Of a stretch of DNA of 64,000 nucleotides, positions 4,676-61,026 are shown piece by piece. A program made the position numbers and the translations under genes. The stretch is taken from the NCBI GenBank assembly GCA_004297305.1, contig SCTR01000006.1:318129-382128 (forward strand), given 5' to 3'. The notes beneath the pieces are model-generated. The model ran no database searches. It was not told where the DNA came from and was given only the letters and a program-made list of their open reading frames with translations. Positions within the stretch are counted from its first letter, which is position 1; each line of letters begins with the position of its first letter. The DNA is from Actinomycetota bacterium. GTDB lineage: Bacteria; Actinomycetota; Actinomycetes; S36-B12; FW305-bin1.

Positions 4676-5575
4676 CTAGCCGACCGAATCGCCTGCGGCG
4701 GCGGTGATCCGGGAATTCATGTGCACCAGCAGGTCCGCGCTGCTGGTCGGGACCACCCCGCCGGCCGTCGAGGTGATCTCGTCGATGTGATCGGCGACCG
4801 ACTCCGGGGTGAGCGGCGTACCGCCGGAGGACCAGCCGTCGGCGACCCCCAGATAGATCCGGCCGACGAACGTCGCACCGACCCGGAAGCACTGCCCGCC
4901 CACCGCGCACTCGTCGGATGCCAGGTAGCCGACCAGCGCTGCGACGTTGTCCGGTGTCGCCAGTTCGACCGGGATGGGGGCGGTCGGCACCCTCGGCCGG
5001 GTCGCGGCCAACGGGGCGATGACGTTCACCTTGATGTCCACGCCCTGCTGCACGGTCTCCAGATGCATGCTCGCAGCCAGGCCGAGCAGGCCGGCCTTCG
5101 CGCCGCCGTACGTCGGCACCCTCGCGTCACCGAAGATCCCTGCTGACGAGGTCAGCACGATCCGGCCACGACCGTTCGCTGCCATCCAGCGCCACGCCGG
5201 CTGTCCCACGTAGTAGGCGGCGCAGAAGTGCACCGCGAGCAGCCGCGTCAACTGATCGGCCGGCACCTGCCCGAACGGCGCGTGTTCGACGACGCCAGCG
5301 TTGTGGACGACGATGTCGGCGGACCCGAACTCCGCGATGACCGCTGCGACCAGGTCCTCGCCACCGGTCTCGGAGGCGATGTCATGAGTGGAGACGAGCG
5401 CCTGCCCGCCGGCAGCGACGATCTCGTCGACCACGGAACCGGCTGCGGCAGCGTCGATGTCGTTGACGACGACGGCTGCGCCGCGCGACGCCAGCAGGAG
5501 GGCATGGGCCCGGCCGATGCCACGGCCCGCTCCGGTCACGACAGCGGCTCTGCCGCGCAAGGACAACTCAGCCAT
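4676..5575 (-). CDS. SDR family NAD(P)-dependent oxidoreductase
   Basis: A classical short-chain dehydrogenase: the Rossmann motif VTGAGRGIG lies at residues 12-20, VHNAG follows the beta-4 strand, and the active site is Ser (LTSSAG) with YGGAK. At 300 residues it is about 45 longer than a minimal SDR. The extension is at the C-terminus, after GGQCFRVGATFVGRIYLG, and resembles the tail seen in hydroxysteroid/acyl-CoA type SDRs. The ATG at 5575 lies inside the end of the amidohydrolase gene (8-base overlap), so the two are cotranscribed and probably coupled. Substrate unknown. Confidence 0.82.
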   Translation of the reverse strand: MAELSLRGRAAVVTGAGRGIGRAHALLLASRGAAVVVNDIDAAAAGSVVDEIVAAGGQALVSTHDIASETGGEDLVAAVIAEFGSADIVVHNAGVVEHAPFGQVPADQLTRLLAVHFCAAYYVGQPAWRWMAANGRGRIVLTSSAGIFGDARVPTYGGAKAGLLGLAASMHLETVQQGVDIKVNVIAPLAATRPRVPTAPIPVELATPDNVAALVGYLASDECAVGGQCFRVGATFVGRIYLGVADGWSSGGTPLTPESVADHIDEITSTAGGVVPTSSADLLVHMNSRITAAAGDSVG

Positions 5576-41222: not shown

Positions 41223-41583
41223 CACCGCGGCCGTCAGCCCCGCGATGCCGGCAGGTCGTCACTTCGCCGTGCCACCGCAAAGGTCCACAAGCCCGTCCCG
41301 TTGTCAGCCCTAGCGGTGGCACGGCGGGCTGTGGACGGCCGTCACCGTAACCAACCGAGGTTGGCGATGATCCGGCGGTGCCAACACCGCCGCTGACCGC
41401 CCCTCGTCCGCATTCGGCCCCCTGTTCGCGCCCTGCCCTGCTGCCAAACAGCCGTCCGCGGCTCACCGCGCCGCCAAGCCTCAGTTCCCGTCCGACGCGG
41501 TCCACCGCGCCCAAGTCACTCGGCAACCACCGAAACTCACCGCCCTGCAACAAGCCTGGGCTCGATGCGGGCTGCGGACCATC
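41223..41583. other. gene-free stretch between zwf and the AbiEi/DUF559 gene
   Basis: About 360 bases with no convincing open frame. It contains copy A of the 56-bp palindromic element (41272-41327). The region from 41390 on is rich in C-runs and has no obvious promoter hexamers. A 5' leader or operator for the following gene must lie here. Confidence 0.5.
41272..41327. repeat. 56-bp palindromic element, copy A
   Basis: Begins CCACCGCAAAGG and ends GCGGTGGCACGGCGG. With six extra bases on the left the arms are GCCGTGCCACCGC (41266-41278) and GCGGTGGCACGGC (41313-41325), a perfect 13-bp stem. It is the same length as copy B (42768-42823) and matches it at roughly 48 of 56 positions, in the same orientation. 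It lies 256 bases upstream of the AbiEi/DUF559 gene. Confidence 0.85.
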
Positions 41584-42783
41584 GTGAGCGGCGACTGGCG
41601 CGGCCAGCAGATCTCGCCGGGCCTGGCAAATGAAGCTCCCGCGCCCGACAAGGCCTCCTCCGCCGCGCGGCGAGGGCGGGCCGGCACCGCGGCGACCGCC
41701 GCAATCCTGCGGGACCGCTTCGGTCCCGAGCCGTTCACGACCGCCGAAGCGTTGGCCACGGTATCCCGCGGTCGATGGCGGGCAGCCGTGGCCGCCGGGA
41801 GGGTCGACCGGGTGCGGCGCGGCCACTGGATTGTTTCGAAGGTTCCCGCCGTGCCACCGCACGGGCTGCTACTAGCCGATTCCGACGAACCGTTGCGGTG
41901 GCATGGCGGACAGCAGACTGTCACGGTACGGAGGGTCGCCCTGGAGGTAGCCCGATTCGCGGCGGACGGTGTCCCGGCGACCGCCGCCCTCGAGACAGCG
42001 GCGCACCTGCACGGGATTCCCACCGTGGGCCACGACCACGCTGGCGCCAATCGCGTCACGTTGTTCGTGCCCCGACATGCCGACGTACGGCGTGGTGCGC
42101 GGTCCGACCTGCTGGTGCGGGCCACGAATCTCCCGCGGCGACAGCGCGATACCCGCCTGGGTGTGCCGACGACGTCGTTGTTGCGCACCGCCGTCGATCT
42201 CGCTCGCGGCCAGCCCCTGCCCTCGGCACTGGTACCGCTGGATGCTGCACTACGGCAATGGATCCTGCGGCTTTCCGACAGCCAGAGGGGGAGCGCCAAT
42301 TCGGCGCTCGAGGCCGCGTCCGTGCCGCGGGCCCGGGCCACGGACGAGCTGGCGGCCATCATTGCGACGATGGCCCGACTGCCGGGCATCCGTGCTGTAC
42401 GAAGGGCCGCCGAGGACGTCGATCCGAAGGCTGAGACTCCCCTGGAATCCCTGTCGCGCGGCAGGTTTCTCGCGGCTGGCTTGCCACGCCCTGTGGCGCA
42501 GCTCGCCGTCCACGGCGACGACGGCCGCACCTACCGCTCAGATCTCGGCTGGCCGCAATACCGGGTGCTCGGCGAGGCGGACGGCGCGCTCAAGTACGTC
42601 GATCGAGCAGATCTGTTGCGCGAGAAGGAACGCGAGGACTCCCTGCGCCGCGCCGGCTGGATCGTCGTTCGCTGGACATGGGACGAGATTTTGCGTCGCC
42701 CTGAGGTCGTCGTCCGCCGCATCCTCGCGGCGTTGAACAGCTACCTGACGGCACAGCCCTTGCGGAGCCACCGCAAGGGCTGA
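41584..42783 (+). CDS. AbiEi-type antitoxin domain fused to a DUF559/Vsr-like endonuclease domain
   Basis: A 399-residue protein. Residues 38-90 (ILRDRFGPEPFTTAEALATV then RWRAAVAAGRVDRVRRGHW) form an AbiEi-like winged helix; the middle resembles the AbiEi C-terminal region (LGVPTTSLLRTAVDLARG). The last 110 residues match the DUF559 endonuclease fold: ESLSRGRFLAAGLPRPVAQ, YRSDLGWPQYRVLGEADGA with the presumed Asp and Glu metal ligands, then REKEREDSLRRAGW and VVRWTWDEIL. This domain pair is frequent in actinobacteria; its role (defence, repair or mobile-element linked) is unknown. GTG 41584 is the chosen start. Its last codons (SHRKG, stop) lie inside palindromic element copy B, and an element-like palindrome lies inside the coding region. 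Confidence 0.78.
   Translation: MSGDWRGQQISPGLANEAPAPDKASSAARRGRAGTAATAAILRDRFGPEPFTTAEALATVSRGRWRAAVAAGRVDRVRRGHWIVSKVPAVPPHGLLLADSDEPLRWHGGQQTVTVRRVALEVARFAADGVPATAALETAAHLHGIPTVGHDHAGANRVTLFVPRHADVRRGARSDLLVRATNLPRRQRDTRLGVPTTSLLRTAVDLARGQPLPSALVPLDAALRQWILRLSDSQRGSANSALEAASVPRARATDELAAIIATMARLPGIRAVRRAAEDVDPKAETPLESLSRGRFLAAGLPRPVAQLAVHGDDGRTYRSDLGWPQYRVLGEADGALKYVDRADLLREKEREDSLRRAGWIVVRWTWDEILRRPEVVVRRILAALNSYLTAQPLRSHRKG
41854..41909. repeat. 56-bp palindromic element-like segment inside the AbiEi/DUF559 gene
   Basis: Left arm CCGCCGTGCCACCGCA (41846-41861), right arm TGCGGTGGCATGGCGG (41894-41909), complementary at 15 of 16 positions. From CCACCGC to GGCGG it is exactly 56 bases, as in copies A, B and C; the middle differs. 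It encodes VPPHGLLLADSDEPLRWHGG of the protein. Confidence 0.7.
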
Positions 42784-42823
42784 CAAGCCGGTCTCGTTGT
42801 GAGCCCTTGCGGTGGCACGGCGG
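42755..42823. repeat. 56-bp palindromic element, copy B, with an extra arm
   Basis: The element proper (42768-42823) has a perfect 14-bp stem CCACCGCAAGGGCT / AGCCCTTGCGGTGG. A further arm AGCCCTTGCGG (42755-42765) precedes it, so the middle arm (42771-42781) can pair either backward (11 bp, loop of 5) or forward (14 bp). The stop codon of the AbiEi/DUF559 gene is at 42781-42783, within the first arm pair. Could act as a terminator between this gene and convergent purD. Confidence 0.85.
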
Positions 42824-59371: not shown

Positions 59372-59392
59372 CGCTGGCACACCCGCGCGGTG

Positions 59393-59448
59393 CCACCGCA
59401 ACGGCGGCCAACGGCACCCGGTTGCCGGCCCTTGCGGTGGCTTCGCGG
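59393..59448. repeat. 56-bp palindromic element, copy C
   Basis: Arms GCCACCGCAA (59392-59401) and TTGCGGTGGC (59432-59441) form a 10-bp stem. From CCACCGC to CGCGG it is 56 bases, like copies A and B; the inside differs (CGGCGGCCAACGGC...GTTGCCGGCCC). Its right end runs into the left 72-bp direct repeat. It lies 150 bases before the AbiEi gene and after dapC. Confidence 0.8.
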
Positions 59449-59510
59449 TGACGTTCAGGCCGCGCGGGTCACGGTGAGGCCGGCGCTGGTGCCGTCGGGG
59501 CCCGGATCGG
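59439..59510. repeat. left 72-bp direct repeat flanking the AbiE module (clpB 3'-end copy)
   Basis: It starts GGCTTCGCGGTGACGTTCAG and ends GGCCCGGATCGG. It is identical to 60955-61026 except for C instead of G at 59452. In the right copy this sequence holds the last codons of clpB on the minus strand (stop at 60971). So this left copy is a stranded clpB tail: its minus-strand frame reads [12 protein letters not shown] then stop, without the rest of clpB. Confidence 0.93.
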
Positions 59511-60137: not shown

Positions 60138-60967
60138 GCTACATCGACGCGCCGACGAATGTGCGCTCGCTGGAGCAGCGTATCCGCAACCTCGCGGGTA
60201 GCGACGGCGTTGCCCTGCGGCGTCGAGTCGGAATGGCTCTTGTTGTGGTCAGCCAGATGGTGCCCGAGGGCGCGATCAAGGGCGGCAGCGCCATGGCCCT
60301 GCGCTACGGGCGCGAGACCCGCTTCACCCGTGATCTCGACGCTGCGCGAGTTCAGCCACTCGCCAGATATCGCAGCGACTTCGAGGACTCACTGGCGGCA
60401 GGGTGGGCGGGGTTCACCGGGCGGCTGGTGGAGAAGGCTGCACCGCGCCCAACCGCCGTGCCGACGGCCTACCTCATGCAACCATTCGAGGTGAAGCTGG
60501 ACTATCTGGGCAGGCCGTGGTGCACGGTGAAGTTCGAGCTCGGCTACAACGAGATTGGTGATGCCGACGAACCCGAGTATCAGCTTGCTTCCGACTTGGT
60601 CGGACTCTTCACCGAGGTTGGCCTCGAGATACCGAGACCGGTACCGGTCCTGCGGGCCGACCATCAAATCGCGCAGAAACTTCATGCTGTCTCAAGCGAG
60701 CGAAGTGAACGTGCGCGAGACCTGGTTGACCTTCAACTCCTCGATCGAGGCGACGATCTCGACCTGACGCAGGTCGACGCGATCTGTGTCCGACTCTTTG
60801 CCTACCGACGTCAGCAGACATGGCCGCCCACAGTCGTCGTCGGCAACCAGTGGGACACGCTCTATGCACAGGCGGCCGACGGCCTCGACGTCCTCCCAAC
60901 GGTCGACGCTGCCGTTGAGTGGGTCAACGAGTTTGTCCGACGTATTGCGGCGGCGGCTTCGCGGTGA
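60134..60967 (+). CDS. AbiEii/AbiGii-family nucleotidyltransferase toxin
   Basis: A 277-residue nucleotidyltransferase. GGS at 50-52 and DLD at 67-69 (TRDLDAA) are the two-part catalytic motif; MQPFEVKLDYLG and HQIAQKLHAVSSER, ARDLVDLQLL fit the other motifs of AbiEii toxins that block growth by modifying tRNA or similar. Start GTG 60134 overlaps the antitoxin stop. The final codons (A-S-R-stop) lie in the right 72-bp repeat, 3 bases before the stop of convergent clpB. Codon use is less GC-rich than clpB, a sign of transfer. Confidence 0.85.
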   Translation: MSYIDAPTNVRSLEQRIRNLAGSDGVALRRRVGMALVVVSQMVPEGAIKGGSAMALRYGRETRFTRDLDAARVQPLARYRSDFEDSLAAGWAGFTGRLVEKAAPRPTAVPTAYLMQPFEVKLDYLGRPWCTVKFELGYNEIGDADEPEYQLASDLVGLFTEVGLEIPRPVPVLRADHQIAQKLHAVSSERSERARDLVDLQLLDRGDDLDLTQVDAICVRLFAYRRQQTWPPTVVVGNQWDTLYAQAADGLDVLPTVDAAVEWVNEFVRRIAAAASR

Positions 60968-61026
60968 GGTTCAGGCCGCGCGGGTCACGGTGAGGCCGGC
61001 GCTGGTGCCGTCGGGGCCCGGATCGG
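60955..61026. repeat. right 72-bp direct repeat, native clpB 3' end
   Basis: Same sequence as 59439-59510 with one change (G at 60968). It supplies the stop codon of the AbiEii toxin on the plus strand and the last 18 codons and stop of clpB on the minus strand. The two copies start 1516 bases apart and bracket the AbiE pair exactly. Confidence 0.93.

Follow-up and report, generated by a model that had tools for sequence, protein, structure and literature searches.

A fixed-length palindrome family around an AbiEi/DUF559-type nuclease gene in actinobacteria: a candidate REPtron-like mobile unit

A palindrome at both ends of one gene and inside it

Why should a palindrome of constant length stand on both sides of a single gene, and again within it? 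The question arose from a first-pass annotation of the window, by which we mean the whole stretch of 64,000 nucleotides analysed here, from an Actinomycetota bacterium. It offered two answers: the palindrome is either a small repeat mobilised through the DUF559 nuclease encoded between its copies, or a binding site for winged helices of the AbiEi type.

The four palindrome copies in the window are real and far beyond chance. Copy A (41265-41326) lies upstream of the DUF559 gene, 42 bp past the stop codon of the preceding gene, and copy C (41847-41908) is in frame within the gene, at about aa 88-109. Copy B (42761-42822) contains the stop codon of the gene and is situated between it and a convergent purD-like gene. 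The solo copy D (59386-59447) is found 14 bp behind an aminotransferase-like gene. Each is 62 bp long and has no assigned strand.

All four stand where the annotation had put them and share the same arms. The arm pattern GTGCCACCGCA-N(20-50)-GCGGTGGC matched the window four times, against 0.01 matches expected from shuffled sequence. A covariance model (R1), built from 10 copies of the source genome and run with its filters off, recovered exactly copies A to D, after which the score falls from 66 to 20 bits. Additionally, every copy folded better than all of its shuffles (z -3.3 to -6.6). Copies A and B are identical at 48 of 56 positions, the roughly 86% identity reported before. An Rfam scan of the window returned tRNAs only. 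An extra right-arm remnant, AGCCCTTGCGG (42755-42765, likewise without a strand), abuts copy B on its upstream side; the assignment is based on its letters and one arm-pattern match.

The annotation had also connected copy D with a nearby AbiE operon, and this connection fell away: copy D follows the aminotransferase-like gene, and a separate insertion scar marks the operon. Copy D is beside the inserted operon, not part of it, and has no special tie to it. The scar is a direct repeat of about 77 bp that brackets the operon (59433-59509 and 60949-61025). It corresponds to the 3′ end of clpB, and its left member also takes in the terminal bases of copy D. Among the ORFs at the operon, we saw no integrase.

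The bracketed gene (41584-42783, plus strand) encodes a protein of 399 aa with a putative AbiEi-type N-terminal region and a C-terminal PD-(D/E)XK nuclease domain of the Vsr/DUF559 type (aa 281-384; 42424-42735, plus strand). Residues E284, E288, D320, G330, E331, D333, G334, K337, Y338 and R350 of this domain are invariant in 16 of 16 aligned proteins, and we take the conserved acidic and lysine residues to form the PD-(D/E)XK catalytic site. The Pfam DUF559 model matched the window protein at 22.4 bits against a cut-off of 20.6 (E 1.2e-4), and the only solved structure matched by the protein profile was the endonuclease-like protein 3hrl_A (E 2.2e-4). The PADLOC AbiEi model matched at E 4e-6, with its best stretch (aa 129-209) behind the winged helix. 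The winged-helix model AbiEi_4 of Pfam matched 8 of 10 relatives at E<=0.01, three of them over the 25-bit cut-off; the window protein gave no such match at E<=0.001, but its alignment with the relatives extends across that region. An NCBIfam scan of 7 proteins gave no match, and an AlphaFold prediction of the window protein alone (mean pLDDT 39) was left out of the analysis. The genes on either side are glucose-6-phosphate-dehydrogenase-like and purD-like ORFs, named from their translations.

As annotated, two of the palindromes are part of the reading frame. Copy B supplies the C-terminus of the protein along with the stop codon. Alignments with 29 homologues, and again with 15, revealed extra residues in the window protein at copy C, which occupies a variable linker behind the winged-helix region. 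Judged from these alignments, copy C is an in-frame insertion that has become coding sequence of the gene itself. Palindromic elements of the Rickettsia type also occur in coding sequence, and copy C resembles them in lying in frame in a protein-coding gene; unlike them, it is a single such copy of 62 bp in a different lineage. Two of the Rickettsia elements, RPE-4 and RPE-6, are named in PMC3733652.

The palindrome family in the source genome

A search of the source genome (2.68 Mb, 13 contigs) with R1 gave 15 places at E<=8e-4 and a weak one (E 0.025), which makes 16 copies; a further candidate at C11:116744 (E 0.41, core of 53 bp) was excluded from the own-genome counts. The core measures 48 bp in 15 of the 16 copies and 49 bp in one, so the palindromes elsewhere in the genome keep their length, as had been predicted. 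The edges of conservation are sharp and delimit a conserved element of 62-63 bp, of which the 56 bp first described are the inner part: the idea of a fixed length stood and the figure did not. The spacing of 42 bases proposed between CCACCGC and GCGGTGG was mistaken. It is 34 bases, and no match with a spacing of 40-44 occurs in the genome; spacings of 24-44 gave 16 places, 10 of them family members.

Across copies the arms are conserved and the middle is variable, with middle similarity equal in the two orientations (0.42 versus 0.41; shuffled, 0.29). Changes in the arms are not compensated: standard pairs make up 82.3%, against 81.6% after shuffling. Since paired arm changes are no commoner than in shuffled arms, the family looks old in this genome. 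A constraint acting on an RNA or a hairpin was rejected here on the same figures, the arm changes being mutually independent. Among the 120 pairs of copies, A and B are the closest, both over the full length (52/63, a score that one other pair equals) and over the middle (17/22). Beside the copy at C2:49301 (L039, near 6064), part of a left end, gccgtgccacca, occurs a second time, which could be the trace of another element that was lost or that started there.

The family carries 71 bits of information, about four times the 18 bits needed to specify 16 sites, which points to common descent of the copies and not to a plain operator. This bears on a purely regulatory reading, in which AbiEi-type repressors would use the palindromes as operators, as AbiE does in regulating itself. 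In their own promoters, AbiEi and Rv2827c bind inverted repeats of 23 bp (PMC7319586), spaced 3 or 13 bp and thus spanning 49 or 59 bp. The palindromes described here are of similar size, the window protein has a putative N-terminal winged helix like that of this type IV toxin-antitoxin system, and the bracketed genes do carry an upstream palindrome. Nevertheless, an operator would require far less than 71 bits, the gene is also followed by a palindrome, and most solos come after stop codons or separate convergent genes. These observations led us to reject operators as the whole story, and we hold regulation alone to be very unlikely. The system at hand also departs from AbiE in its C-terminal nuclease domain, in repeats that lie on both sides of the gene and are dispersed, and in that no AbiEii nucleotidyltransferase (toxin) gene is present beside the window gene. 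The second answer of the annotation, binding by the AbiEi winged helix, is compatible with these data and is probably part of the same mechanism as mobility, but as pure regulation it leaves the solos behind stop codons unexplained.

Nearly all of the about 16 copies are intergenic, behind genes or between convergent or tandem ones; a single copy (C) is inside a gene, and some overlap gene ends. Copies A, B and C alone touch the DUF559/AbiEi-like gene, the only DUF559 homologue that a protein search (E<=1e-5) found in this genome. The other copies lie mostly behind ordinary genes, such as those for pyruvate kinase, glutamate dehydrogenase, an ArsA-type ATPase and a HIT protein. For the 30 ORFs next to these other copies, Pfam matches were read at E<=1e-5, a threshold that would miss the DUF559 match of the window protein itself. 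In all, 12 of the 16 copies are away from DUF559/AbiE genes, which comes close to the scatter that the annotation had named as speaking against its proposal, but solos are expected of a REP-like family. On the evidence of this genome alone, the palindrome would pass for an ordinary REP-like repeat, and its link to the gene would be weak.

The source genome gave 0 matches to the Y1 (HUH) transposase PF01797, and the same search was positive in 6 of 14 control genomes. Unpaired arms (within one mismatch) were absent from the source genome except for one at C7:185296, which gives no sign of a larger element with these ends. No target-site duplication was found at the copies, either here or in the young families of relatives. 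A MITE of a DDE transposon was considered and rejected, given the lack of target-site duplication and of a parent element with the same ends, bar one near match.

R1 is specific to its own lineage: it found nothing in 165 other genomes of the order and nothing in 395 others drawn from the phylum. The arm pattern was absent from viral contigs. Ten arm-pattern stretches in a set of genome contigs were rejected as members, their middles being unlike the family (best E 0.057).

The gene and its palindromes in other genomes

The link across genera emerged only when the flanks of the gene were examined elsewhere, not from R1. A DUF559/AbiEi homologue is present at E<=1e-5 in 76 of 166 genomes of the order. 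The first comparison covered 29 relatives (three with too little flank), several of which carry palindromes on both sides of the gene, in sequences private to their lineages. The wider regions were picked from top protein matches and clpB neighbourhoods, not at random, and contig counts point to draft or metagenome assemblies.

A 50-bp direct repeat, matching at no fewer than 38 of 50 positions, flanks 18 of 32 DUF559 loci (window included; 6 loci near contig edges dropped), against 2 of 305 control intervals of the same length from the same regions; not every such repeat is palindromic. For 38 non-redundant loci, which exclude the window, 9 loci near contig ends and 5 syntenic loci, we then counted the palindromes (44-92 bp) at either end of the gene. 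Both ends carried one at 14 loci, one end at 11 and neither at 13; the corresponding numbers for 451 control intervals were 1, 15 and 435. Thus, 25 of 38 loci, against 16 of 451 controls, have a palindrome at one or both ends, and the concentration beside DUF559/AbiEi genes that the annotation had proposed to look for, while hardly seen within the source genome, is found across genomes. Some of the 13 loci below the threshold (e.g. L126 and L127) have imperfect palindromes. In terms of density, 46 palindromes occur in 29 kb near gene ends, versus 20 in 572 kb elsewhere. The bracketing palindromes are mostly 60-66 bp long (about 55-70, typically 62-66), with lengths of 75-81 bp at L118/L119 and L131. 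An inner core like GAATGGTCGCTAA is common to many of them and resembles AAGGGCTGCTA of the window family.

The pattern of gene and palindromes recurs outside the order of the host. A tblastn search of plasmid records found homologues in Nonomuraea and in Tsukamurella tyrosinosolvens NCTC13231, which belongs to another class. In the latter, the gene for WP_139286304.1 (NZ_LR134464.1) lies between a purC-like gene and purB with a 60-bp palindrome on each side. Nine records, all from Tsukamurella tyrosinosolvens, contain this palindrome, at 13 places in total; the 10 copies that we read measure 59-61 bp, and those away from the gene lie in narrow intergenic gaps or over gene ends. The Tsukamurella case is independent and fed no model. 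Altogether, the five loci examined outside the order comprise one bracketed gene, one with a weak 3′ palindrome and three without an adjacent palindrome. In Nonomuraea gerenzanensis L248, a 69-bp palindrome with perfect 30-bp arms (5440-5508) was noticed about 2 kb from the DUF559 homologue.

Empty sites, which the annotation had proposed to look for in relatives, do exist. One unit (L122, genome G088) is inserted between two genes that are joined by a short gap in the sister genomes G089, G081 and G085, where the junction holds neither gene nor palindrome. Genome G053 has both states: the empty join, here at a contig end (L158), and the occupied one (L134), with 89 bases past the junction identical between the two contigs. 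Coexistence of the two alleles in the sampled population would give this picture, as might an assembly of mixed strains. In G086, the same upstream gene is followed by a solo palindrome whose sequence differs, and the downstream gene does not match. Behind a greA-like gene, G078 and G079 (L126 and L131; flanks 81-87% identical) carry different units in opposite orientation, and units in opposite orientation also occur between matching flanks at L132 and L148. The unit at L143 shares related palindromes and 67-68% gene identity with those at L122 and L134, with no common flanking sequence. A truncated remnant at L131 in G079 resembles the palindrome of the other unit.

These junctions allow two further explanations to be weighed. 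The palindromes might be ordinary transcription terminators or hairpins of mRNA 3′ ends with no tie to the gene, and strong hairpins behind stop codons are indeed what we see. However, terminators would account neither for the fixed length and sequence identity among copies, which have no T-run, nor for the bracketing of one gene family and the empty sites, and we regard this explanation as highly improbable. The other is a homing-type history: the palindromes would spread alone as targets, the nuclease gene would invade them, and loss by recombination would leave solos, much like solo LTRs. Vsr-like (EDxHD) homing endonucleases exist, and they too are stand-alone Vsr-type nuclease genes that act as selfish elements; different units at one site in both orientations (L126/L131) and the other solo beside the same upstream gene in G086 would fit as well. 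Here the target is not split: each side has a whole palindrome, not a half, that comes and goes together with the gene, and the empty junction of G089, G081 and G085 is without any palindrome. We consider this history decidedly unlikely.

Dispersed copies were sought with a second model, R2, made from 22 palindromes of many lineages, among them three own-genome copies and one solo. R2 matched 33 of 166 genomes of the order, many of them in multiple copies; its counts per genome are lower bounds, taken per strand with 31 candidates per genome scored. The gene is present in 31 of the 33 palindrome-bearing genomes, compared with 45 of the 133 others (p 1e-10). When the 13 genomes that fed R2 are left out, it is present in 18 of 20 versus 45 of 133 (p 2e-6). 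Genomes G074 and G076 have palindromes, and the gene was not detected there.

The solos and the gene-flanking copies of one genome are alike in exact ends and length. In G079, 17 solos and the two flanking copies are all 63 bp, run from CG to CG and differ mainly in a few central bases; the common length is 62 bp in G088/G084 and 64 bp in G028. The arms of these young families (G079, G088/G084 and G028) are 98.5-99.6% complementary, with 4, 2 and 6 cells, respectively, changed on both arms. In G078, the sister of G079, both arms of the unit and of two solos carry the same paired differences from G079, which looks like the spread of a new master copy.

Palindrome similarity also follows protein similarity (rho 0.26, p 0.0005, 34 loci), and it does so when 5 syntenic loci are removed (rho 0.22, p 0.004, 29 non-redundant loci). 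This co-divergence is modest, and shared ancestry may be partly behind it.

Finally, the gene might be a passenger. Some other enzyme, from host repair or a transposase elsewhere, would then move the palindromes, and the DUF559 gene would be cargo caught between two copies. To our knowledge, no mobilising activity is known for the DUF559/AbiEi-like family; moreover, the gene went undetected in two palindrome-bearing genomes (G074 and G076), and the solos of the source genome far exceed its one unit. Against this, the DUF559 gene is the sole gene of the unit, across many genera and in Tsukamurella a single family fills this role while the palindromes differ, the palindromes co-diverge with the protein, and the source genome has neither a Y1 transposase nor a visible larger element with the same ends. 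We judge a passenger role unlikely.

A candidate mobile unit and its relation to known repeats

The reading that we favour, and think probable on balance, is a REPtron-like mobile unit in which fixed-length palindromes are paired with an AbiEi-type/Vsr-DUF559 nuclease gene in place of RAYT. At the level of sequence, it is carried by a family of fixed length, the bracketing of the gene across lineages, dispersal, empty sites, co-divergence and intact nuclease residues. These features uphold the first answer of the annotation as far as a mobile repeat tied to the gene is concerned; the action of the nuclease, that is, the binding, cutting and mobilisation of the palindrome by the protein, is what we infer.

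The palindrome would be a REP-like, non-autonomous mobile repeat of fixed length, and the full unit would consist of a palindrome, one gene and a second palindrome. The winged-helix part of the protein may recognise the arms, and the nuclease may nick or cut the palindrome, either as double-stranded DNA or as an extruded or single-stranded hairpin. By repair or replication, the palindrome alone or the entire unit would then be copied into a new site. Most surviving insertions would be those in short gaps downstream of stop codons, and solos would fill the genome.

REPs are described in PMC2817692 and PMC3733652 as dispersed, intergenic and lineage-specific palindromes, located behind genes or between convergent or tandem ones, which can also bracket a single gene and show changes on both arms in young families. 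The likeness to the REP/RAYT system is close: here too, a gene is bracketed by two copies of a genome-dispersed repeat, and the palindromes are intergenic, behind or between genes, both in the source genome and in Tsukamurella. The differences lie in the enzyme and in the shape of the repeat. RAYT is a Y1 HUH transposase, absent from the source genome, whereas the gene described here joins a probable AbiEi-type domain to a DUF559/Vsr-type nuclease. REPs have a stem of 20-40 bp with an unpaired GTAG/CGTC head; the present palindromes are mostly 60-66 bp long, and those of young families are paired to their CG ends.

CGTC-tagged REPs without a dedicated transposase are reported in PMC3733652. 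They are likewise short palindromes, and one lineage here (G079 and G078) starts with CGTC. Their stems are of 8-9 bp with an unpaired CGTC head, whereas CGTC is paired here and other lineages start with CGTT, CGCC or CGAG; homology between the two is not shown. In the literature that we searched, the scope of which left most subscription journals and preprints outside, we found no report of an association between DUF559/AbiEi proteins and palindromic repeats.

The recurring unit of one gene and its repeats hints at a small mobile element with a so far unrecognised mobilising enzyme. We see about an even chance that it represents a new class of prokaryotic mobile element, in which a fusion of AbiEi and Vsr-DUF559 domains copies or moves palindromes together with its own gene. 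If so, REP-like repeats would have arisen around an enzyme unrelated to RAYT, and palindromic repeats that have no mobiliser would gain a candidate one. A common actinobacterial family, now annotated as orphan antitoxin or of unknown function, would acquire a new role: many of the genes labelled 'AbiEi family antitoxin' or 'DUF559 protein' in actinobacteria would be enzymes of mobile elements and not parts of toxin-antitoxin systems.
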